From: Mesodorylaimus sp. YZB2_4
Lineage: Eukaryota; Nematoda; Enoplea; Dorylaimida; Dorylaimidae
DNA length: 64,000 nucleotides
Reading direction: 5' to 3'
Assembly: GCA_030248295.1 (NCBI GenBank)
Contig: JASANH010000085.1
Location: 62,001 to 126,000, forward strand
Below the pieces are notes generated by a model. The model did not search any database. It saw only the letters and a program-made list of their open reading frames with translations, and was not told the origin of the DNA. Made by a program: the position numbers and the translations under genes. Positions 1-27,300 of this stretch are shown piece by piece (the stretch's first letter is position 1; each line of letters begins with the position of its first letter).

Positions 1-456
1 TTGGCCTTGCCTCAATACTTGTGCCAACTGCCACCTGTGCTTCCACTTCCTTCGACTGGGCGATCATGGGTAAAATGGGTGTAAGGATGCACCAGCCAAT
101 GACCATACCCTGAAACACCACACCATGGCACATCTCGTGAACGCCTGATGCTCGATTTGCGATCGATTGATTCTTACCTGCACCAGCAAATGGGGAATCA
201 ACAACCAAGGATTTTCAGTCCATGCTCCATAGAGCATAATACATACGACCAAAGTCCAAATGACTCCCACAAAAATTTTAACTGCGGAAACTGAATTCGA
301 GTTTTCTCCGAAAAGTATTTCGTATGCGAAGTCGAAAAGTAAAACCGCTATTTCGAATACGCCAACTGCGAGTAGCCAATTGCGAGTACGACAGCAGCAA
401 AAGCTGTGATTATAAGAACTATCGCGAGGCTTGTCAGGATTTTCCTCTTGTGCCAT
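1..456 (-). CDS. LAPTM/DUF7027-like four-span membrane protein (3' part outside window)
   Basis: Exon 1 (456-178) encodes 93 residues starting MAQEENPDKP. It has a Cys-rich CCCR stretch near the N-terminus and two hydrophobic spans, and ends in WLLIPHLLVQ. A GTAAG...TTTCAG intron (177-110) joins in phase 0 to exon 2 (109 down to 1), which starts GMVIGWCILTPILPM and runs off the window. The WLLIPHL signature and the single intron at the same codon are shared with the next gene upstream (1125-1881), so the two are tandem paralogues. LAPTM-type proteins sit in late endosome/lysosome membranes. Family assignment rests on topology and the signature, not on a search; the exact function is unknown. 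Confidence 0.65.
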
Positions 457-1124
457 GGAAGAAGAAACGCAAGTAAATTCGATAGGGAGCGTAACAATCC
501 GCCTGTTATTCTGCGCAATACATGGCTACCCAGACAGTGCGCTGTGATTTTTGGCAAGGAATATGGGTTATGTTATCAAAACCAGTTACTCAACATGTGT
601 CGAGGCTACTGGTACTACCAATCGGAGAGAGGGGGTGTCATCATGTTGGCACCCGCATGTCGAGTTGGCACCCGCACGCCTGACGTGTGAAGCGATCGCA
701 GGTACGAAATTTTTTTAAGCTACGCAATTGGTCGCACCCAAATATTTGGCCTGTCTGGATATCGGATGCGGCTAAAATCCGTTCCGAGACCAAGAACGAG
801 GCGTGATTGATGTTGAGCTCAAAAACGATCAGCCTTGGAAACTCGGCTTCTTCCGTCACGGACTGCTCTAAAAACCGCATTCTATCTTGTGCTAGCGCAA
901 AACGATGCAGAAAAAAAGGCATCTTCTGGAGCCCAACATTTCGCAAGCAAGAAACAATGACACACAGTTGGTAGCTATTGTACAGCATATATATGTACCT
1001 CTGCTTTGGGTGACTGGTACGCGGTGTATGAGTAGCACTTATATCTTGATTTGTTTTATCATCATATCAATCCCGATACGCATACCTCACTTGGCACCAG
1101 TGACTACTGCTAGTCTCAAAATGT

Positions 1125-1881
1125 TCACGAATTCGTATTTTGCTCCTTCGGCGAGTAAGGCGGAGGAGGGCTCAATCTATTAGCAGTCGGTGGTATGTAC
1201 GGAGGCACGGGTAGCTCGAAAGGCAGAGACTCAATATTGGTACAGTCTGACCGAGGGTCGTCCACAGGAGTCGATGGTGAATAAACAGGATTCACAAAGC
1301 CTTCCGTCGAATACGGGTGAAGGCTAAAAGATGGCAATCCAAGACATTCTCTCATTGCGTTTTGCTTCTGGGAAAAATAACAGAGGCAACGGCAGACGAT
1401 AAAGAAATAGAGCAGCTCAAGTGCTACTCGCATCAAAAGAATTGTCAGCGCCGCCGTGAATACAATAGTTGAAACTGCCAATGCAATTTTCAAGGCAGCC
1501 AGAACCAGAAAGTAAAAGATTCCAATAATCTGAAAAAGTCTCATTTTGCAGACATTACACGGACATATGGAGTCGTACCTGCATGACCAAATGTGGAATC
1601 AGCCACCACGGGCTCTCCTTATGAATTCCCAGAAACAGCAGAATGACCGCAATCACCCACAAAAGTTCGATTATGATTGTAGCGATGAACAGTGCGAAGA
1701 AGAGTGGTGTTTTTCGTTGAGTTGAATCGCAAGCTGCGAGTCCAGCTAGTAGGGCTATCAAGCCTATCAGCTCCAAAATACCGATACACATGGCCCAATG
1801 ACGAATATGCCAACCACAAAAAACGTATCGATTATCGAGATCGTTCAAATGGCATCTTCGCACAGCTTCCCAATCACGCAT
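1125..1881 (-). CDS. LAPTM/DUF7027-like four-span membrane protein
   Basis: Exon 1 is 1881-1579 and exon 2 is 1529-1125, separated by a 49-nt GT-AG intron in phase 0; the product is 235 residues. Four hydrophobic segments are visible: near residues 28-50, 57-85, 102-125 and 130-150. WWLIPHLVMQ sits at the end of exon 1. The C-terminal tail is Pro-rich and ends with a PPPPYSP motif. This is a PPxY-type site of the kind that recruits Nedd4 WW domains in LAPTM4/5 proteins (family knowledge). It pairs with the gene at 1-456 as a tandem duplicate. Start chosen: ATG at 1881, the first ATG of the open frame. A role in endolysosomal membranes is an inference. Confidence 0.7.
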
Positions 1882-2204
1882 ACTGATAGTTGGTGTGGAA
1901 AGACTGAAAAGACGCGCGATGAAATGTGGTTTTCTTGGTCTGATGGGGCACGAAAGTTTGTTGGTGAATGGTCAGGCTAACTTAGGGTTCGTGCGCAAGT
2001 CAGTTTGATTTAACTCATACAATTAGTAGATATTAGCCGTCTTTACTTACACAGTAGTCTTGCAGAAACTAAAATTCCCACAAGGTACTTACATTTCCAC
2101 CATTTTGTCTCGAGATAGTTTGTGCGCAAGCAGCTCAACTTGGATGACTGAAAACTGTGCACAAAACTTCCACCTTTCTATGCGCCAAGCAACATCATTC
2201 ATAA

Positions 2205-2212
2205 TGACGTCA
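2205..2212. promoter_or_regulatory. Perfect CRE/ATF palindrome
   Basis: TGACGTCA lies about 325 bp upstream of the ATG of the minus-strand LAPTM-like gene. It matches the CREB/ATF site exactly, but one 8-mer is weak evidence of function. Confidence 0.25.
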
Positions 2213-3708
2213 TTTCTTCATTTAGCTTCCTGATTTTGCAATTCAAGCTACCTCGAACCTTGTCGCCTAAAAAAGAAGGGCTAGGAAAGACACATTTCAA
2301 CTTTTTTTGATCAATGGCACCTCAGTTCTATATGTATTTATCCACACAGTGTACCAGTACTGCAGCGAAAAACTGACGAATGCGAAAAGTGCATCTGCAC
2401 GTTACAGACGCCCTGCACGTACACTCCATACATGAAGCCAGGAAGATTCTCCGGGAAGGCATAGTATAACACTTTGTGTCCTCTTTGGGGATGCAAAGGA
2501 AACTGAAAATTTATCGGCCATTGTTCATTCTGACTAACAGCAACAAATTATGGCACTAATTTATTGTATAGTAGCTCATGTGGCCGATACTTGCGGACAT
2601 ATCGCACGCCTCCAATCAGCTCCCTTGCGGCACACTATTAGCAACTCTTCTCAAATTCCATCAGATGGTTCAGCAGTGTAGAAGGCTTTGTTCCTGTATT
2701 TCTCGGGTCGGTAAAGGGAAAGCTGCCGTTTTATTCTCACAGAGGCAGCGCATTTCACACGGCTCTGGGCCTCTGACGCGTGAGTGAGCCTCTCGTGTCA
2801 GTGGGTGCAATCGAGTTGTAGGCGGATGTATTAGATATATCTTATGCGTGCATGCTGCTTACCAGTTACTGGTCCTGCTCTTCTTCACGTAGCCCATTCC
2901 ATCAGCATTTGTATGATAATCAAAGTTATGCTCAATATGTGAGTGGTCTGCCTGCGCCGTGGCGAGTTGTGCCACCTGGGAGCCGTGTCGCAGTGAAAGA
3001 TCTGAATAGAATGGTGGACGCCCAAAGAATCCAGAAACTTCTCATCACTTGGGAAGGCCGATCTAATTTCAGCCGGGAGGCTATTGCTGGTACAGGTTGC
3101 CCTCGGCCGGGTGCTTCTAGAAGAGAAGTCAGAGGAGAGTTGCCGTGTTGTGTCGTCCCCGTATCGTAATATGGCTGCTGATCAGATAAGGGACAGGCGG
3201 TTTTAAAAGTCCCACGAAGGAGCTGAAGCACAACCCACAAGCTTATGTCAAGGCAAAAAGTGTCAAGGCCAAATTCAGGTACCGTATGAAAAGCTCGATG
3301 CGGTGGGTCATAAAGAATAAACTGAGAGAGTCAAATATTGGGTGCCCCTAAAGCGTCGAACTTAGTGTGTAGCATCTAACTATACTTCCGCCCTTGCCAC
3401 TTGTGCAGTCTGTACATACATTTTGTCGAAAACAGTTTGTCGAAATGGTGTTGTGTGCGCGCTATATTGGGGTTTTTAGGGCGAATGGACTTATTGCGGG
3501 AGCTGCCAGTTAAACCTTGATGTCATTATGTGTAGAAAAGGGGAACGATGCGCGCTGAGGACACATTAAAATTTAGCGCATAAACGGACTGTAAGCTTAA
3601 AATTCAAGGTTGTAAGCTACTGCATGAAAGGGACTAAATTGTCCAATCATCATTCCTGGACATCATTCCAAAGCAAGTTTCTTTCGCCTGTTGCAAGTAC
3701 CAACACCA

Positions 3709-8806: not shown

Positions 8807-11539
8807 TTAGTTAAAATTAAGAGGCATTTTCGGTGCCCAAAATTGATCTTCATATCTTTTTGCCACGTTCATCATCAAATGGAACTTTTGAGGTGTTGTC
8901 ACAAAATATGCACTCACGGGAACCACACTCCATCTCATCCAGCCGGGAGTAGTAAACCCGATCGGAACGGTTAGTGCCGGAAAGGCGAATGATGATCCGA
9001 TGTCTCCCAGAGTCCTCCCATTCGAATCCAAATAAGATAACAGCTGGTGCGAATTTTGTGTGAAAACCACCACATCAAACTTTTTGAATATATTCCTCTC
9101 GAGTAGTCCACGGACGTCATTTAGAGCCGTTTCGGCTGACGCGCGTGTCTTGTTGCAAGTTCCCCAGCTCCCAAAGTTGCATACGAAAAGTACGCAGTAC
9201 CAGTCGAGTAACAAGGATTCTTCGCAGAGCCCTTAAATGGAGAAGATGAAGGCCTAAAATGGGCTTCAATGAGCTACTTACTGGCTGACTGAGGCGACGA
9301 GGCACCATTGAATGCCAGTTGGAGCAAACCTGCAACATCGCTGACCCTATGCCCTGTTGACGAGGCTATCATCTCATTCTCTGCCAAGAAGTGGCTCATC
9401 CACAATGTCATGCATTCACAGGTTGTGTCCCAGTCCTGCTCAGTCACGTTGTTGTACGGTTCGGCCATGTCCTCGTCCCAAAATAAACTGACACTAACAT
9501 TGGGCAATTGCCGCAAGTTAGCTTCGAAGCGTCGAAAGGCGGGCAGCACCTCGGTGTCGATAGAATAAGTCATATCACCGAATGAGCTTTGAACGGTGAT
9601 CGAACCATAAGTCAAGTTCCCAACCACGCCTACGCGAATATGAGGCTGACCTGTCGATGATCCATTGCCGCACCACAGATCGTAATTTGTTCTGTTATCG
9701 GGCGAGAGCACGTCCATGACAGTGCACACGTCTTTCACTGTCAGCCCCATCAGACCCATTGTGTCGTGAGTGGGCCCTCGGATTGGAAACAGGCCTGACA
9801 TATCGAAAGAATCCACGCACGGACGCAAGCCGACAACGTGGGTGACCGTGGCTGGGCACGTTGTCGAACCACTGCTGTCGCTGGTCAGGCCTAAAGTAGA
9901 CATGGTTAGGAGAGGGAAGAGGCTGCGCAGCAGTGCACATCCTATTCGTGACGCCAAATTCAACAGGCTGAGTGGTCATTCAGGGGAAGAGGATGACATC
10001 ATAAACACTCCAGGCGTAGGAGGCTGTGAGACATAACGTAAAACGCTCCCGTTTCTGCCTCGTCTAGAGATAAAGGTATCGATTAGCCCAATGAAGGCAA
10101 GCCAATGCACTGATCCTTGTACGGATATAAGATGGCTAGTCAAGGCCCAAACAGGTATAACCAGCCTCCCCCAGGCCAAACACGCTTGTAATAGGCATGG
10201 ACTAGTTTCTCCATCAGTGCACTGATCCAGGGAACCGGTCTGCTTCTCCCAAGTCAGGGCCAGCACGAGAGCGAGAGCGAGGTCGAGTGTTCAGTTTGCT
10301 TTGCAGGCATCTGTAGGAGACTGGTCTAGAGTTCCTGATCTGAATTCTTCGATCCAATGTCCGTCAGAACCCCTTCGACGGTCGGCGCGTGCGGCTGCTC
10401 CCAAGCCTTCTTTGTGTGTGGCCAATCATTCAGCACGAGGTGCCGGTGAACTGCGTGAGATCTTTCCTGGCTTCAGTCATCCTCTAATCAGCCCGATAGC
10501 CCTAGGGCGAGCCAAAGATTTTATGCCTACGCCAGTCCCATGGAAGGGCTTGGGTTCGAGTGCTACAGTATTGCGGCGATCACGAGACACAACATTCATC
10601 TGCTAAACATGATTAGCTGTTCCTTTGCTCTAAGCCCACCACTGCTTATCGTTAGTGCCCACTAAAACGGTATGATCGAGCTATGGCGCCTAAAATCCAC
10701 TGCGGGCCGCACATTATCGATTAGGGCACCCTTTCCGACAAGTGCCTTCTGGTTCTGGTTCTAATGTGCGGTTCCATCTCGATCATGAATTTAATTGAAT
10801 GCTGGTTCCTGATACCAGGCTTCCTAGCCGAAGCATCCATCCAACCCAAAATACTCCTAGCGAGTGTTCGCACTCGAGTCTGCATGCAGTGTACCAGTGT
10901 ACTGCAACGTAGTGTGCCTGAGTTTGGTGCTGTGCTAAAACATAGGAGTCCCCCTCACGTACCGATCACACTCAATCTGGCAGCCAACGCAGCTGCATTT
11001 CCATTGCTGCTACTCGAAGCTGAATCCGTAATCGAATGCGGATTCCAAACCCTTCCACCGACTGACGGTGTTTCGGGGGCGCTCATAGCCAGCGGAGTCA
11101 AGTTGGCTTTGCCCAAAATCACTGCCCCCGCCGCTCTCATCCGTTTCACACTGGGGGCATCGTTCGCCATTGTATGATTGGCAAAAAATGAGAGACCTAA
11201 GGTCATTGGTAATCCTTTTACAAGAATATTGTCTTTGATCAAAGTCGGCACGCAGTGCAATTTTCCAATAAAATCTCTATGCGTCCTAAAATAATCGTCG
11301 ACCCTCTCTGCTTGTTCGATGGCACCACGACCATCCACCGTAATAATGGCATGAATTTTAGGATTGTATTTTCGAACACGATTCAGAAAATAATGAGTGA
11401 TCTCAGCACAGCTGACGTTTGATGAGATTTTTTTCAAAATCTGATCAATGCATAAACGTTCTAAATCAAATGTGACCCCTGCACATGCACTAAAAAGTGG
11501 AATAAACACAATGAATAGTCTAATTGATTGAAACCTCAT
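8807..11539 (-). CDS. Secreted amidase-signature enzyme (FAAH/GatA-like fold)
   Basis: Three exons, 11539-10963, 9890-9282 and 9231-8807, join in phase to 536 residues. A signal peptide (MRFQSIRLFIVFIPLFSACA) starts the protein. The amidase-signature catalytic triad is visible: Lys in TLIKDNILVKG, the cis-Ser in SITDSASSSSNGNAAA, and the nucleophile Ser in the Gly/Ser loop across the first intron (IGLTSDSSGSTTCPA). Sequons such as NRT, NLT and NVT fit a secreted glycoprotein. The family hydrolyses amide bonds (fatty-acid amides, amino-acid amides); substrate here is unknown. In the nucleophile loop the usual TDTGGS reads TSDSSGS, so the Gly before the Ser is replaced, and activity should not be assumed. 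The 1.07-kb first intron carries a dispersed repeat. The second intron (50 nt) ends TTTAAG; the more consensus TTTTAG (ending at 9254) would break the frame. Confidence 0.8.
10190..10535 (+). repeat. Dispersed repeat family, copy 1
   Basis: About 350 bp inside intron 1 of the amidase gene. It shares ordered blocks with 26872-27240: ATAGGCATGGACT, CAGGGAACCGGTC, AAGTCAGGGCC, GACTGGTCT, GTCCGTCAGAACCC, CACGTGCGGCTGCTCCC-type, and CCTAGGGCGAGCCAA. Both copies have the same orientation and lie antisense in introns of minus-strand genes. No coding capacity, terminal inverted repeat or B box is evident. Confidence 0.75.
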
Positions 11540-18400: not shown

Positions 18401-21400
18401 ATAGCTTAGTTGTAAAGTGTGATTTGTACTCGACGATATACTTCACTTCTCAAAAGTAAAATTTTTCAGGGCTTCGTCCCAATTTTTTCAAAAAAATGTA
18501 GACCTTTTTGGGTTTAGAATCGACAGTCGCACTTACTTGCTAATATCCAAAAACTGACTGTATCCAATCATCGGCGGAGTAGCCAAATGAGCGAACGGAG
18601 CCAACCTATGTTCGTAACGTATGCAATCGTAATCATCACCTCCAGCGAACGAAGGCAGGCGAACACGATTGAGCACGTAAAAACCAAGCATTGCCTGAAA
18701 CTTATTTCTCCTGTGAAAATTCAACACAAAAGAAACCCAACCACACACACTTACCCGATAGTACCCTTCGCACAATTTCTGTTTCGATTGCAAATGCACA
18801 ATTTCTAGTCTATGCATCTTCGATAGTTTCTTTTTTGCAGCCTTTTTCTTCTTCTCGCCTTTCGATTTCTCTAATTTGCCTAAAAATTCTCAAAATGCAT
18901 GAAAATATGCGCGAAAACCACACGCTCTTACTGCTCGCTTGTTCTTGGTCATAAATAAAATTATCCGCTTTATGCAAGACGTTGATCAACCATTTGTACA
19001 AGAATTCGTGGGCGTACCAGTACATGCCTGCATATTCGTACATCGAATACAACTCCAGCTCGAAGCCCAAAAGTAAATAATCGATCATTGCCGACAGGAT
19101 GTGGTAGAGAACGAATGAACCAAGGCAGGCTAGATGGCTACGTGTCAACCATGCGGGCGGCTGGTTCGGTCGATTCAGAACCGAGTTTAAAAAGCCGTCG
19201 ACACGATCAGCCTACGTAAAGAAACCGATACTTGGATTAATTGAACAGGAACGGATTCTTGTTATAGTTTATTGGAAACTATTCCAGGACCTCCGTACTC
19301 ACACCTACTAACAGCCCCTCACAAGGAATGCTACCCCACTATTAAGGTTTTCCTTGGATCGAGACACGTCTGAAACTGTAGACTGCGACAAAGGGAAACA
19401 CTGAAACAATTTTGAAGGCCGGACGAGGTTCTGGTCAAGAGTGGTCAAAGCGACGTTCATTTTGAATTTTCTCAATTATTTCAAGATATCTTCACGCAGG
19501 CTGCCTAAATTGCAACTTGCGGCCTGAGAGACAAGTTCGTGCATCCAATTTATGCAACCTGCGCGAAGATATCTCAAAATAATCAAAAAATTCAAAATTG
19601 ACGTCGCTTTGACCACTTTCCACTCTTGACCAGAACCTTGTCAGCCTTCGAAATTTTTTCAGCGTTTTTCATTGTCACGGAGTCCAGTTTGAGACATGTC
19701 TCGATCCCAGGAAAACCTTATCAGTGGGGGTAGCATTTCTTGTCAGACGCGAACAACTGACGGACCAGCTCACGTCAGTCTCCCACCCATTGCACCTCTT
19801 CTTGTAACGATGCCAAGTCTTCCAAGGCAGTTGCTAATCGATCTCTTTGTCGCGCTCGATTATGGCCACAAGTTCGTAGTAGTTCAGGCAGTATTCGACA
19901 ACAGTTAGCCATAAAGTCTTCCCACACTTGCCGACATTGCGGGTCACTGGCCACGGAGCATCTAGAATGTGTAAGGAATCAAAGCAGGAATCGGCTACGT
20001 CTGATGGAAGAAATATAGGACTTCCCACGGCTATACTTTGACGTACAAGCCATGACCCTATCTCCTAAACACGACAAACGGTTTCGGTACTTACTTCGGA
20101 TGAAGTACAGGAGGTTGAATAAAATCTCGCATCGACTCTTTCACAGCATCTTCGAAAGACATCTTGCCGAGGACTCGTCCACTTCCCACGCCATAGGCCA
20201 GCTAAAAATGCACTGCCTAGAGACGTCTTATATCAATCAAAAACGAAATTCTTACCTGCAAAATAGATCTCGACAACAAGCAATTATCTTTTCGACTAAA
20301 CTCCCGGAAGAATTCCTGAAAAAGAACAGTCCGTGAAAAGGACAGTCCCGTGATCTGCATCACGTCTCGATTCTTCTAACTCGCTCACCAGAGCTGCTGC
20401 AAATGTTCCAGCACGTTCGGGCAAAGTGCAGCATACGAGCAACTGTTGAATTAATCGCCGCATGTAATCAACAGATGCCGGAGAAGAAAATAATTTCGCT
20501 TTCCTCGGAAATGTGGGTGGCAACAGCCTCTGATTGACATTTGGCACGAAACAAGGTAAATAACTGTACGTTCCTGAAACAAGGAGAAAACTTCCTTAGA
20601 AAGACTGCGACTATAAGATGTGGCCATGGTGCATCCACAACGCAGAAGAAATCAAAGCAGGAATCGGCCATGTCTGCTGCAAGACACAGGCCTTCCATGG
20701 CTACACTACGACACGAAAGAAGTACAAGCCGTGATTCGACCTCCTAAACACGACAGACGGGCTCGGATGAAGTAGGATACTGTATGAACATGAACACACA
20801 TACATCCCCGCCGATTCCTGCTTTGATTTCTTCTGCGTCGTGGATGCACCATGGCCACATCTTATAGTCGCAGTCTTTCTGAGGAAGTGTACACCCTCGG
20901 GACGCAAAAGCATCAGCAGGCTAGCATGGCACGTACTTACCATCATCATCCTCGCAATGTACTCCTAACACCGTAGTCGCTGCCACCCGTTCTATCAACG
21001 TCTTGCATTGTTCTAAGGCTCGTTCGGCTTCTTCGAAACTGACTTGGCAACGGGCAGGGACTCCCTTTAGCTGCAATAACACCAGCTGAAAGCAGGACCA
21101 CACAATAGGGGCCAATTACGTACCACATTCTTCGTATCGTCTTTTCCTGACAACGACGTAATCGCAATTACCAAAAAACGCAGAAACCGTATTCGTGAAG
21201 AAATGGCTTCGATTTGCTCGATCTAAAAAAGAAACAAACGCATTATCAAGAATGCACAACAATCACAATTTTCATACTTTCTGCTGAGACTCTTCAATCA
21301 CAGGCTTTCCCTTGAGGTTCTAAAAAAGTAAGAAAATTCAGGGAAAAGTAAAATATTGACCTGAGGCAAATCGAACCCGAATGATCTTTTGACAATCTTC

Positions 21401-22366
21401 ATCGGCTTCTTTGAGCATGCCAAGAATTCGAGTATCACTCAAGTCGGCGCACATTTGAAAACCGTAACTACCAGGCTGAAAGTCCTCCTAGAATAAGAGT
21501 AATGTTGAATTAGGAGCCTTGAGTTTCGATAATTATCTCATCAGTTATACACCTCTTCACAAACGAAAGCCCGTCGGATAATTTCTCCGCAAATAGAAGA
21601 TAATTTTAAAACCCCGACAATGAACGCTTTTAGCACTCGATCGACGATTTCATGGGGTCTATGCGCGTACAGATTCGTGAACACTGTTTGAGCTAGAGAA
21701 TGGCCCTCCAGCCAGGTGACCTGCAATCAAAAGCAAAGCATGCGTTGTTTGCCATCGATCATCATAACTTGCCACCTCACCCAGCAGGCCATAGTTGCAT
21801 CCATGATCGATATTAGCTCCATCTGGTCTATATTCACCAACTTAAGCGTCCCATTCTGCAACATAGCGAGCTTACATGCCGCTAATATTCAAATTAGGAT
21901 ATTCGCAGCTTACCGCCACCGCACTTTCAAAGGAAACCGGTTTGGCGCCGCTGTTTCGCTGAACCATTCCAGCATCCATTTTCGGGTCCATCAACTCAAT
22001 GGCTGACATTCCTTCGAAAAGGGAGAAACTAAAAACGAGGTCGCGCATCACATTAATCGAATAAAATTCTGACTAAACTTGTCCTACCAGACGTCATGAA
22101 CGAGCTCGCCCAATTGAAGTTCTGAAAATAGGCGATTCGTTTCACAGGAAATCAAAATTCAGCTCAAAACTTAAAGCAGACTTGAAGCACTTACTTTTTG
22201 CCGCATTCCTGAATTCCTCAGTAATGTCTTGCCAATCATTGGAAGATGGATCGGGAGATGGTGATGACGAAAATGGTGCATTTTTTGACTTTTCCGATAC
22301 TTTTACATGAGCGAACCCATTTTCAGCGCGTTGTACGCCCGTGGCATCGACTTGTGTATCGTTCAT
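15436..22366 (-). CDS. NAA35: NatC N-alpha-acetyltransferase auxiliary subunit (NAA35/Mak10)
   Basis: Multi-exon gene. NAA35 anchors the NatC complex that acetylates Met-hydrophobic N-termini at the ribosome. Exons solved include 22366-22195 ([10 protein letters not shown]...[10 protein letters not shown]), 22121-22088, 22028-21914 ([15 protein letters not shown]), 21855-21781, 21720-21553 ([15 protein letters not shown]) and one with [15 protein letters not shown]. Later come 19961-19787 ([15 protein letters not shown]), [34 protein letters not shown] and NLVLIRVCK, with a last exon at 15495-15436 ([16 protein letters not shown], stop). Each block matches the order of the human protein as I recall it. 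The last exon is separated by a 1.5-kb intron full of SINE-like sequence. One junction is unresolved: exon 19961-19787 needs two leftover bases, while the preceding exon (PPVLHPK) ends in phase 0, so a small exon or a frame error lies near 20000-20090. Confidence 0.88.
15926..16000 (+). repeat. Truncated tRNA-like SINE candidate, copy C
   Basis: CAGACCTTGTACGCAAGGCCGT and CTACTTTAGGCACCTCCAG resemble the body of copy A (GACCTTGCACGCCAGGCCGT, CCTAAAGGTGCTTTGAG). It faces copy B in opposite orientation, forming a tail-to-tail pair inside the last intron of NAA35. The head with the B box is missing or degraded. Confidence 0.4.
16085..16292 (-). repeat. tRNA-like SINE candidate, copy B
   Basis: Read on the minus strand it starts GCGGCCAGTGGTGCAGTCCG (A-box-like). 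The B-box-like GTGTTCAATCTC follows about 50 nt later, then CTGACCTTGCACGCCGGGCC and GTACCGTCAAGGTGCTCCTAG. Block order and spacing equal copy A at 3709-3905. Confidence 0.55.
16481..16554 (+). repeat. Second tRNA-like module (pseudo-tRNA or SINE head)
   Basis: TAGTTCAGTTGG fits the Pol III A box exactly. About 35 nt later a T-arm-like hairpin CCGGA-GTTCTAT-TCTGG forms with a 7-nt loop. The flanks GGCCGTACTAG and CTAGTAGGCC can pair as an acceptor-like stem with one bulge. I could not fold a convincing anticodon arm, so it is not called a functional tRNA. Confidence 0.4.
17294..17690. repeat. Two clusters of GATCGG/CCGATC repeats
   Basis: At 17294-17375 and 17605-17687 the hexamer GGATCGG and its complement recur many times (for example ACCGATCCGATCCGCCTGC). 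The first cluster is split by an 11-G run (17331-17341). Both lie in or beside NAA35 introns near its 3' end and are locally self-complementary. The start of the first cluster lies close to the exon encoding [14 protein letters not shown]. Confidence 0.6.
19319..19742. mobile_element. Fold-back (palindromic MITE-like) element
   Basis: Two arms of about 190 bp are inverted copies of one another around a central spacer of some 40-70 bp. The outer ends read ACAAGGAATGCTACCCC (left) and GGGGTAGCATTTCTTGT (right). Inner blocks pair as GGTTCTGGTCAAGAGTGG with its complement, and AAGATATCTTCACGCAGG with CCTGCGCGAAGATATCT. Arms are diverged by scattered substitutions and small indels. It has no coding capacity and sits in a NAA35 intron, between the exons ending EEVQW and starting ADRVDGF. 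Confidence 0.85.
19949..20905. repeat. Three copies of one repeat within NAA35, one inverted
   Basis: Copy 1 (19949-20110) and copy 2 (20586-20762) run in the same direction and share AAAGCAGGAATCGGC, GTACAAGCC and CTCCTAAACACGACA blocks. Copy 3 (20809-20905) is inverted relative to copy 2 and shares GACTGCGACTATAAGATGTG and ATGGTGCATCCAC. Copies 2 and 3 can pair over about 80 bp across a spacer of roughly 140 bp within one intron. On the minus strand, copy 1 ends at the acceptor (TTCTAG, 19962) of the exon 19961-19787. Confidence 0.75.
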
Positions 22367-24321: not shown

Positions 24322-27300
24322 TCACACCTTCCTAATGGAGAAATCACAATGAAACAGCGACTCGTCGTCGAAGTGCACAACGTGCTCACTGGGTCTCTGC
24401 TCACGTTGTATGTTCCTAGGCAACAGATAACCAACCGAATTAGCAGTGGCCTGCTTCAAAATCTTTAACCTCTCGGCCAGCAGGCCCGAGTCACTCTGCA
24501 CTAGATCGCTCTCCTCATCCGGTTGCGCCGAAGCCGAGGGCAACAGCGATTCACTGGCCTCTATTGATCTCTCCTCCTCGCCTTCTTCGATCTGCTCTTC
24601 CTCCACCCTCGATTCGATTAGGACAGACGATTCGTCCGCAACCCCCGTCTCCGTAATGACTGCCAATTCGTGGCCTCTATTCTCAACCACCTCCTCTTCG
24701 ACCACCCCGCCGCTGTCGCATGTTTCGTCTTGGTCCAACGCCGTCTTATTTGAGCATTCGGTTTCAAGGCTAAAACACGAAAGCGTGTTAAGAGCAGTAA
24801 CCTCGGCCAGCACCTAGCTGCTACCACCATCACATTTAGGGCATAGCCATATCACCTCAGCGCCATCTCACATCCAGCTAGCATAACGGGCATGCACCAC
24901 ATTCGTAAGGGTCACAGGAAGCGTATTTCAAGGGTCACTGACTCTACACCCTCCCCCAGCTCGGATGCAATCAAAACACAACCGCTGTCAAGAAGTTTTA
25001 ACTAAAATGTGATACAGATGCAATACTCAAATCAGTAATACGATCAGGCTGTACAATAGGCCGAGCTGCGTCAACCATGCGGGTCCTGGACGAACACAGC
25101 CGTGCACGACCAAAGCGGTACACGATACCGGACATGCTGTCATTACCTACGGAATGGTGCACGAAAGATTAGTCAAAAGACCAGTGCTCAGCGCGCTAGC
25201 CGATGTATGATTTCCATCGTTGCGCTAACCGCACACGGCCGCTCCCGTAGCCGCTGCCGACTGCATTGCCGCTGCCAGAGAGTCGTTGCTCTCTGCGTGA
25301 TCCAAACAAAGCACATGCCGAAATAGTGCATTGATCGAGAAAAGTTCAGTGTCACTGATAGGGTCAGTGCCTCACGACAAGTCTGACACTGCACTCGCCA
25401 CCCTCGACTCCTCCTCCCTCAACCAGTCCCCACCATGGAAACCCAACCCAAACCCCCGGCCCGCCTACCTTTGGACGAGCTGACCCTTCTGTTTCCCGTT
25501 TTGATGCGAGCAAGCCGACAGTCCGTTCGGATCTTCTTGAGTGGCGTAAGACAATGCGCTTTCTCCAGCCTCCGACACGTCGCCATTAGGCACCTGACCG
25601 TTAGTGATCGAGTGTTCCCCATCATCGCGTAGTTCCACACTTCGATGATCACAGCAGCTCGAGTCCTCATTGGCCTTGACCACATCGTTCACGTGGTCGT
25701 AGAGACGAAATCTAAAATATGCGTCCATTGCCTCCGTCCGACAACAGAGACACACGGACTTACTCAGTTCCATCATCCGCTTCGACGACCACCTGCGCAT
25801 CGTCGTCGCTGTCTTCGTCCGGTGTCACGAAAACCACCTCGAGTTCGATCTTGCCTTCCTAAAACACGTCCATATTTGATTACCCCGACAACAAATGCCA
25901 CTCACGCTAAAGCCACCCATTTCATACCACTGAAACCAAACCCCTCTCACCTGTTTCGACAACACATCCACAGCATCGGCGTGCTTGGCCTGACGCAGAT
26001 CGATCCCATTTACTGCCAGTATCGCATCGCCCACATACAACGCCCTGCACCGATCCGCCGGCTGTCCTTTATGGATATCGGATATGAGAATGGGAACGCC
26101 GTGCTCTCGGCCTCCCTGAAACATCCTCCACTCACACCCTACCTCTCACAGCCCCGCACACCCACTCACCGTAATCGAGATTCCAAGTCCCTCATCCACG
26201 TCTTTGTGCAAAGTGACCTTCCGAACTTGACCAACTCCTTTCTTCTTCCGCGGTTGTTGACCATCCTAAACCATCATCTCAAACATTTCTTCTCCCGATG
26301 CCACACCGAACTTACATGTCCATCGGGAACAGCCAAATTCTTTGTCTTGCCACGTCCCCGACACGCCCGAATGACCGTCTTGTGACGATGCAAGTGAATC
26401 TCGGCCTCCAACTGGTTCCACAGTCGATCGTGCTCAGCCCCGCGCATTTCACGATTCAATAATTGGATTTGTTGAATCCTAAAAAGGCAGCCTTTTTAAA
26501 ATTCCAACCCCTGCAAGTCCGAATCACTCACCTCCCAGCCAATTCCTTATCCAGATACTTGGCCGCCAACCGGGCACCGTAGACCTCGTTCTGCAAGGCC
26601 GTGATAAATTTTCGCAAATATTGATTTTCCTTCCGCAAATGCTCCGACTCCGCTTTTAATCTCGCAGGCGGCATGATCTCACGACGAAAATTTTGGATAT
26701 CTTGTTCCTCAAAATGCAAATTCCTGGTGCACAACTATGAAAGTGCATCCCATCACACGGACCCTGTCCTGTACAGATAATGCCATTACACCTACAATCA
26801 CATTCCTGTGTTGCGTGAGGTCGTTCCGGTTGGCTCGAGCCTTCCTCCGGCAAGTCCTAGCACACCCTAGTGTGATAGGCATGGACTATGCTCTCCGGCC
26901 TATTGGTGCACTGGTTCAGGGAACCGGTCCGCCTCCCTCAAGTCAGGGCCGGCACGAGACCGAGCTCGAGTGTCTGGTTTGGTTGCAGGCATCGGACTGA
27001 GGACTGGTCTGGAGTTCCTGGTCTGAACTTGCTCTGTGAGCACTTCGGTCCCAGGTCCGTCAGAACCCTGACGGCCAGCACGTGCGGCTGCTCCCCGAAT
27101 TTTGAGTCTGAACGGCCCTTGTGGTAAACTAAATAAACTAAACCACGATGTGTCCATCGACTGCGTGGGACTGTTCCTGTGGCTTGATCCATCCTCTGGT
27201 CAATCCTAGGGCGAGCCAAGGATTTCACTGCGACATGAGCTCTCCTTCAGTCTAAAACTAACGGTGTGCATCGATTGGAGGGAAAAGTGGCGAGTCCCTC

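Follow-up and report, generated by a model that had tools for sequence, protein, structure and literature searches.

The 421-bp palindrome lying within a NAA35 intron of the nematode Mesodorylaimus sp. YZB2_4 is, with a probability of about 0.92, an old non-autonomous fold-back copy (i.e., a palindromic MITE) of a Tc4/Tc5-group DNA transposon. Its membership of this group is argued from the target rule of its family and from a transposase-bearing relative. We postulate that a Tc4/Tc5-type transposase, binding the CAAGG... ends and cutting at C-TNA-G, would have moved the element in trans, and that it would have landed in the NAA35 intron and then decayed there, without a function for the host. 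Fold-back transposons of the Tc4/Tc5 kind, first described in worms, are already known, and it is the present family that is new as a further example; no title among those listed by the literature searches names such a fold-back family. The assignment names a likely mover for a repeat family that could otherwise remain unknown palindromic DNA, the family offers palindrome copies of different ages for measuring arm co-evolution, and the long hairpin predicted in the NAA35 intron is directly checkable in RNA data; apart from these points, this is ordinary transposon biology.

The palindrome and its place in NAA35

The features below are numbered along the window, i.e., the whole 64,000-nucleotide stretch of contig JASANH010000085.1 that was analysed.

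19322-19742, no strand: fold-back element without a transposase gene, 421 bp, termini CAAGG...CTTG inside the target-site duplications
19322-19512, plus strand: left arm, about 191 bp (inverted-repeat detection, arm alignment)
19513-19545, no strand: central spacer, 33 bp (gap inside the inverted pair)
19546-19742, minus strand: right arm (inverted copy), about 197 bp (inverted-repeat detection, arm alignment)
19319-19321, no strand: left target-site duplication TCA (target C-TCA-G)
19743-19745, no strand: right target-site duplication TCA (target C-TCA-G)
19212-19786, minus strand: 575-nt NAA35 intron around the element, ends GT...AG (splice sites set from the protein alignment)
19787-19963, minus strand: upstream NAA35 exon, conserved part (7rb3_B residues 381-439, E 2.3e-8)
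18942-19208, minus strand: downstream NAA35 exon, conserved part (7rb3_B residues 438-521, E 7.7e-22)
21905-22030, minus strand: Mak10 (PF04112) part of this NAA35 gene (sole PF04112 match in the genome)

The original prediction, made from the letters of the sequence, had placed two near-exact inverted arms of about 190 bp around a small spacer at 19319-19742, inside an intron of NAA35. The inverted arms are confirmed, the element proper spanning 19322-19742 and position 19319 being the first base of the left target-site duplication. Arm lengths and the small centre were also described correctly, while near-exactness was overstated: in a global alignment of the outer 196 bases of each arm, 162 of 186 aligned columns are identical (87%), with 20 further gap positions. 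The alignment thus extends well beyond 50 bp, and the outcome in which the arms match over a shorter stretch only is excluded. Nearly all of the element consists of the two inverted arms and a short loop, and the stop-to-stop frames overlapping it reach at most 71 aa.

When folded as minus-strand RNA, the element reaches a minimum free energy of -258.1 kcal/mol, whereas its shuffled versions average -107.7 (z -26.4) and none of 100 folds as low; the fold is therefore not a product of chance. The predicted structure has 184 pairs and its longest unbroken helix is 31 bp. The intron location holds as well, given that both flanking exons match NAA35 of the PDB entry 7rb3 (which we take to be the human protein), that the splice ends read GT...AG and that the intron preserves the reading frame across these exons. 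This NAA35 gene is the only one found in the genome by the Mak10 (PF04112) search, and the element together with both duplications makes up 427 of the 575 bases of the intron. The nuclear NAA35 transcript, as modelled by this folding, should form a long imperfect hairpin at the element. Editing by ADAR or dicing of this transcript, for which the element had been proposed as a natural substrate, is plausible by analogy, since intronic inverted repeats and transposons of C. elegans undergo editing and are recovered by an antibody against dsRNA (PMC4282642).

A repeat family inserted at CTNAG

Searches of the genome (145 Mb, 1067 contigs) place the element sequence at 44 or more sites, a lower bound. 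Tc5-type transposons and matches to chemoreceptor-like GPCRs in this genome accord with its nematode origin. A first search gave 93 matches, which we grouped into 40 places (again a minimum, as scoring covered 40 of the 66 candidates from the first look), and a search with the arm consensus added at least four places, i.e., two on contig C130, one on C44 and one on C125. Allowing one mismatch at most, the genome contains 330 occurrences of the end motif TNACAAGGAATGCT versus 116 of a reversed control. In a consensus built from 21 fuller copies of the 40 places the arms are identical, the exceptions being a short centre and the variable base of the flanking CTNAG; each copy was oriented by its strongest alignment with that of the window, and wrongly turned ones would blur differences between the arms. 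The centre of the consensus is asymmetric and well resolved.

Copies were retrieved from the 40 places and from seven more, so that 48 loci (47 places, loci L041 and L104 overlapping) were examined, 27 of them with both ends readable and chosen on end quality, flanks playing no part. On the left flank of these 27, C stands at -4 in 22, T at -3 in 22 and A at -1 in 25; on the right flank, T stands at +1 in 25, A at +3 in 22 and G at +4 in 23. A, C, G and T are about equally frequent as the middle base of the TNA, and yet this base is the same on both sides in 16 of 27 copies (permutation mean 6.9, p 0.0002), an exact 3-bp duplication being present in 12 (permutation mean 3.9, p 0.0001). The middle bases disagree in the other 11 copies, exact 3-bp duplication is missing in 15, and an exact duplication of 4-10 bp was found in none of the 27. 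The window copy itself is flanked by TCA on both sides within CTCAG.

An empty site could be reconstructed for the copy at L018 (TTA left, TGA right), whose host sequence is itself a repeat. When the two flanks of this copy are joined through a single TNA, five copies of the host repeat align with them over the join, gaps of one base occurring close to it. Of these five, the window holds two, L043 one and L020 two, and both stretches of L020 carry CTTAG at the equivalent site. The family thus inserts in CTNAG and duplicates TNA, and the empty site of this one copy agrees. No general excess of palindromic targets beyond CTNAG was seen across 26 copies (L020 left out), where, of the 40 distances scanned, a single one (distance 33, with 14 of 26) stood out.

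The element is hence short, multi-copy and devoid of coding capacity, with terminal inverted repeats and a target-site duplication, as expected of the non-autonomous palindromic MITE that had been proposed; a single copy lacking flanking duplication, the outcome that would have spoken against it, is excluded by the copy number and the TNA flanks. The Tc4 element of C. elegans (Yuan et al. 1991) is reportedly a fold-back structure some 1.6 kb long, each arm measuring roughly 0.77 kb. Compared by description, it shares with the present element a fold-back almost without unique DNA and a CTNAG target of which TNA is duplicated, but it is considerably larger, the present element measuring ~0.42 kb with arms of 190-200 bp. 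PMC11071193 reports the C-TNA-G rule for Tc4 elements of nematodes and tardigrades, including those of the tardigrade Ramazzottius varieornatus, which share this target with the family but belong to another phylum; that paper describes them by consensus sequences in which a DDD transposase domain is present. PMC6829131 describes Tc4 as active in a mut-7 mutant.

Tc5-like transposons and the probable transposase source

The transposase source, listed as unknown in the original prediction, is most likely an element of the Tc4/Tc5 group, a view that has superseded the earlier one and that follows from the shared CTNAG target with its TNA duplication and from locus L118, in which terminal repeats related to the family arms enclose a Tc5-like transposase.

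Profile searches of the genome gave 16 matches to DDE_1 and 29 to Transp_Tc5_C. Locus L088 represents seven similar loci (L088-L094) with long pieces 93-99% identical and frames up to 578 aa, and its protein carries DDE_1 (residues 374-485) and Transp_Tc5_C. Five of the seven ends examined in this group read CCTCG-TNAG (both of L088, and those of L089, L092 and L094), the exceptions being L093 with TCAA and L091 with TAGG beside the terminus. These loci were possibly active recently in the genome. Their ends, compared by eye, have little in common with the family ends beyond C-A/G-AGG.

L118 was found on contig C211, by a search with an arm of the copy on contig C1040, as two arms 4.0 kb apart. 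Its inverted ends (127 bp, 97.6% identical) are 75-87% identical to the family consensus and to the C1040 arm, over the outer 117-168 bp only, i.e., they are related to the family arms and not identical to them. Pieces of its interior, on the minus strand, match residues 177-574 of the L088 protein (tblastn E 7.7e-70), with 44% of positions identical between residues 361 and 543, a range that includes the DDE_1 domain of that protein. The Pfam score of L118 for HTH_Tnp_Tc5 is 22.6 bits (cut-off 22.2) and that for Transp_Tc5_C is 25.3, under the cut-off of 27.4; a Pfam scan of four frames detected no DDE_1, and L118 is absent among the matches listed by the DDE_1 and Transp_Tc5_C genome searches. 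Because its transposase gene is spread over several frames, it is either broken or interrupted by introns. L118 is flanked by TGA on both sides, the left TGA being preceded by T instead of C, and its left end starts with G. The L088 group and L118 thus have the same target as the element and a Tc5-type transposase of their own, and in L118 the terminal repeats match the arms as well; unlike the element, they hold this gene between their repeats.

An exact parent, with full family arms and a transposase, was not found in the genome searches run. The sixteen DDE_1 loci (L080-L095) were rejected for this role, as they had no pair of family ends and, in some of them, single motif hits with 2-3 mismatches only. 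Next to six further hits among the 29 to Transp_Tc5_C, the pieces compared with the family consensus matched it over 22 bp at most. Ends of the L118 type also lie 1.5 kb apart, without a transposase match, at L119 (C70:451560-453230), perhaps an internally deleted form. L119 is flanked by inverted copies of one stretch of ~36 bp, with TNA in opposite sense on each side, and may occupy the middle of an older palindrome or be the product of an aberrant event.

Arm symmetry

Both arms could be aligned over at least 150 positions in 26 of 47 loci. Mean arm-to-arm identity in these copies is 0.835, against 0.741 expected from independent decay off the consensus, and mirrored changes occupy 246 of 4541 sites (5.4%), compared with 1.9% (maximum 3.2% in 5000 shuffles) when right arms were dealt among copies. 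In a tree of arms, 12 of the 26 copies have their left and right arm as sisters and the other 14 do not, shuffled labels giving 0.3 such copies and at most 3; both kinds of shuffle only partly remove the relatedness among copies. Mirrored substitutions in the two arms follow subfamily, and private ones number seven, in six of the 26 copies. Given so few private mirrored changes, most of the symmetry was inherited from symmetric parents and did not arise after insertion.

The arms still match in subfamilies that have moved as much as about 18% away from the consensus. The C1040 copy differs from the consensus by 18%, and yet its arms are about 95% alike (94.5%) and its central loop is unchanged. 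The mobile lineage has therefore stayed symmetric while diverging, and arm-to-arm conversion is a likely cause. We see an even chance that arm symmetry is actively restored in the mobile lineage, changes in one arm being copied to the other by arm-to-arm conversion or by template switching on the hairpin; if so, fold-back elements would persist as near-perfect palindromes during divergence. Alternatively, symmetry could come from repeated birth out of homogenised terminal repeats of autonomous relatives, an explanation weakened by the loop common to the C1040 copy and the consensus.

Alternative explanations

Short, non-coding elements with a 3-bp duplication are also found among the Tourist-like MITEs of the PIF/Harbinger superfamily (by their generally known traits), and PF13359 transposases are plentiful in this genome, with at least 152 matches. 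Among 30 of these PF13359 loci, 13 had single hits to the family end motif at two mismatches, but paired family ends (CAAGGAATGC) were found at none of the 30 within about 1.5 kb on each side, and the sole TNA-flanked inverted pair among them, at L075, differs in sequence from the family. The N of the TNA is free in the family and not mostly A or T, and it is a Tc5-like transposase that lies between the family-related arms of L118. We thus regard a PIF/Harbinger origin as very unlikely, and Tc4/Tc5-group descent remains the preferred reading.

It could also be argued that the hairpin was retained in NAA35 by selection, for splicing control, editing or small RNAs, as its predicted fold is very stable and comparable repeats of C. 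elegans end up as edited dsRNA (see above). The arms of the window copy, however, have 29 differences with just three mirrored changes, none of them private, and their identity of 0.846 (0.802 expected under independent decay) is an excess that the 26 copies jointly display too, in their case because of subfamily ancestry. Post-insertion upkeep of the window hairpin is thus unsupported, the copy looks like an old, unmaintained insertion, and we give selection for the hairpin slightly less credence still. Palindromes are prone to local inverted duplication and to assembly artefacts, an origin that we hold to be scarcely credible: related sequence sharing the target signature is present at 40 places, mostly on separate contigs, and copy number and target-site duplications refute it.

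Other repeats

The C1040 copy (L104, C1040:7700-11321) is a fold-back copy at about 456-3088 of its locus, split by an insert of ~2.2 kb whose edges, TTAAAGGACAT and ATGTCCTTTAA, resemble another transposon with TTAA ends. It was rejected as an autonomous element, given that the insert breaks the second arm and that the longest frame in the 2.6-kb end-to-end stretch is 118 aa, and we read it as a nested insertion. PF13359 matches on contigs C602, C446, C291 and others suggest a large PIF/Harbinger load. The fold-back copy of L020 (117-920) lies at the middle of a larger palindrome with about 185 bp extra per side, built of another repeat that is related to 26879-27044 and 10217-10337 of the window. 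A second short inverted-repeat element, one end of which reads CTAACAAGGGAACATCGC, was seen at about 56-479 of L113 (C88:414200-415700) and is perhaps another CTNAG-type MITE family.
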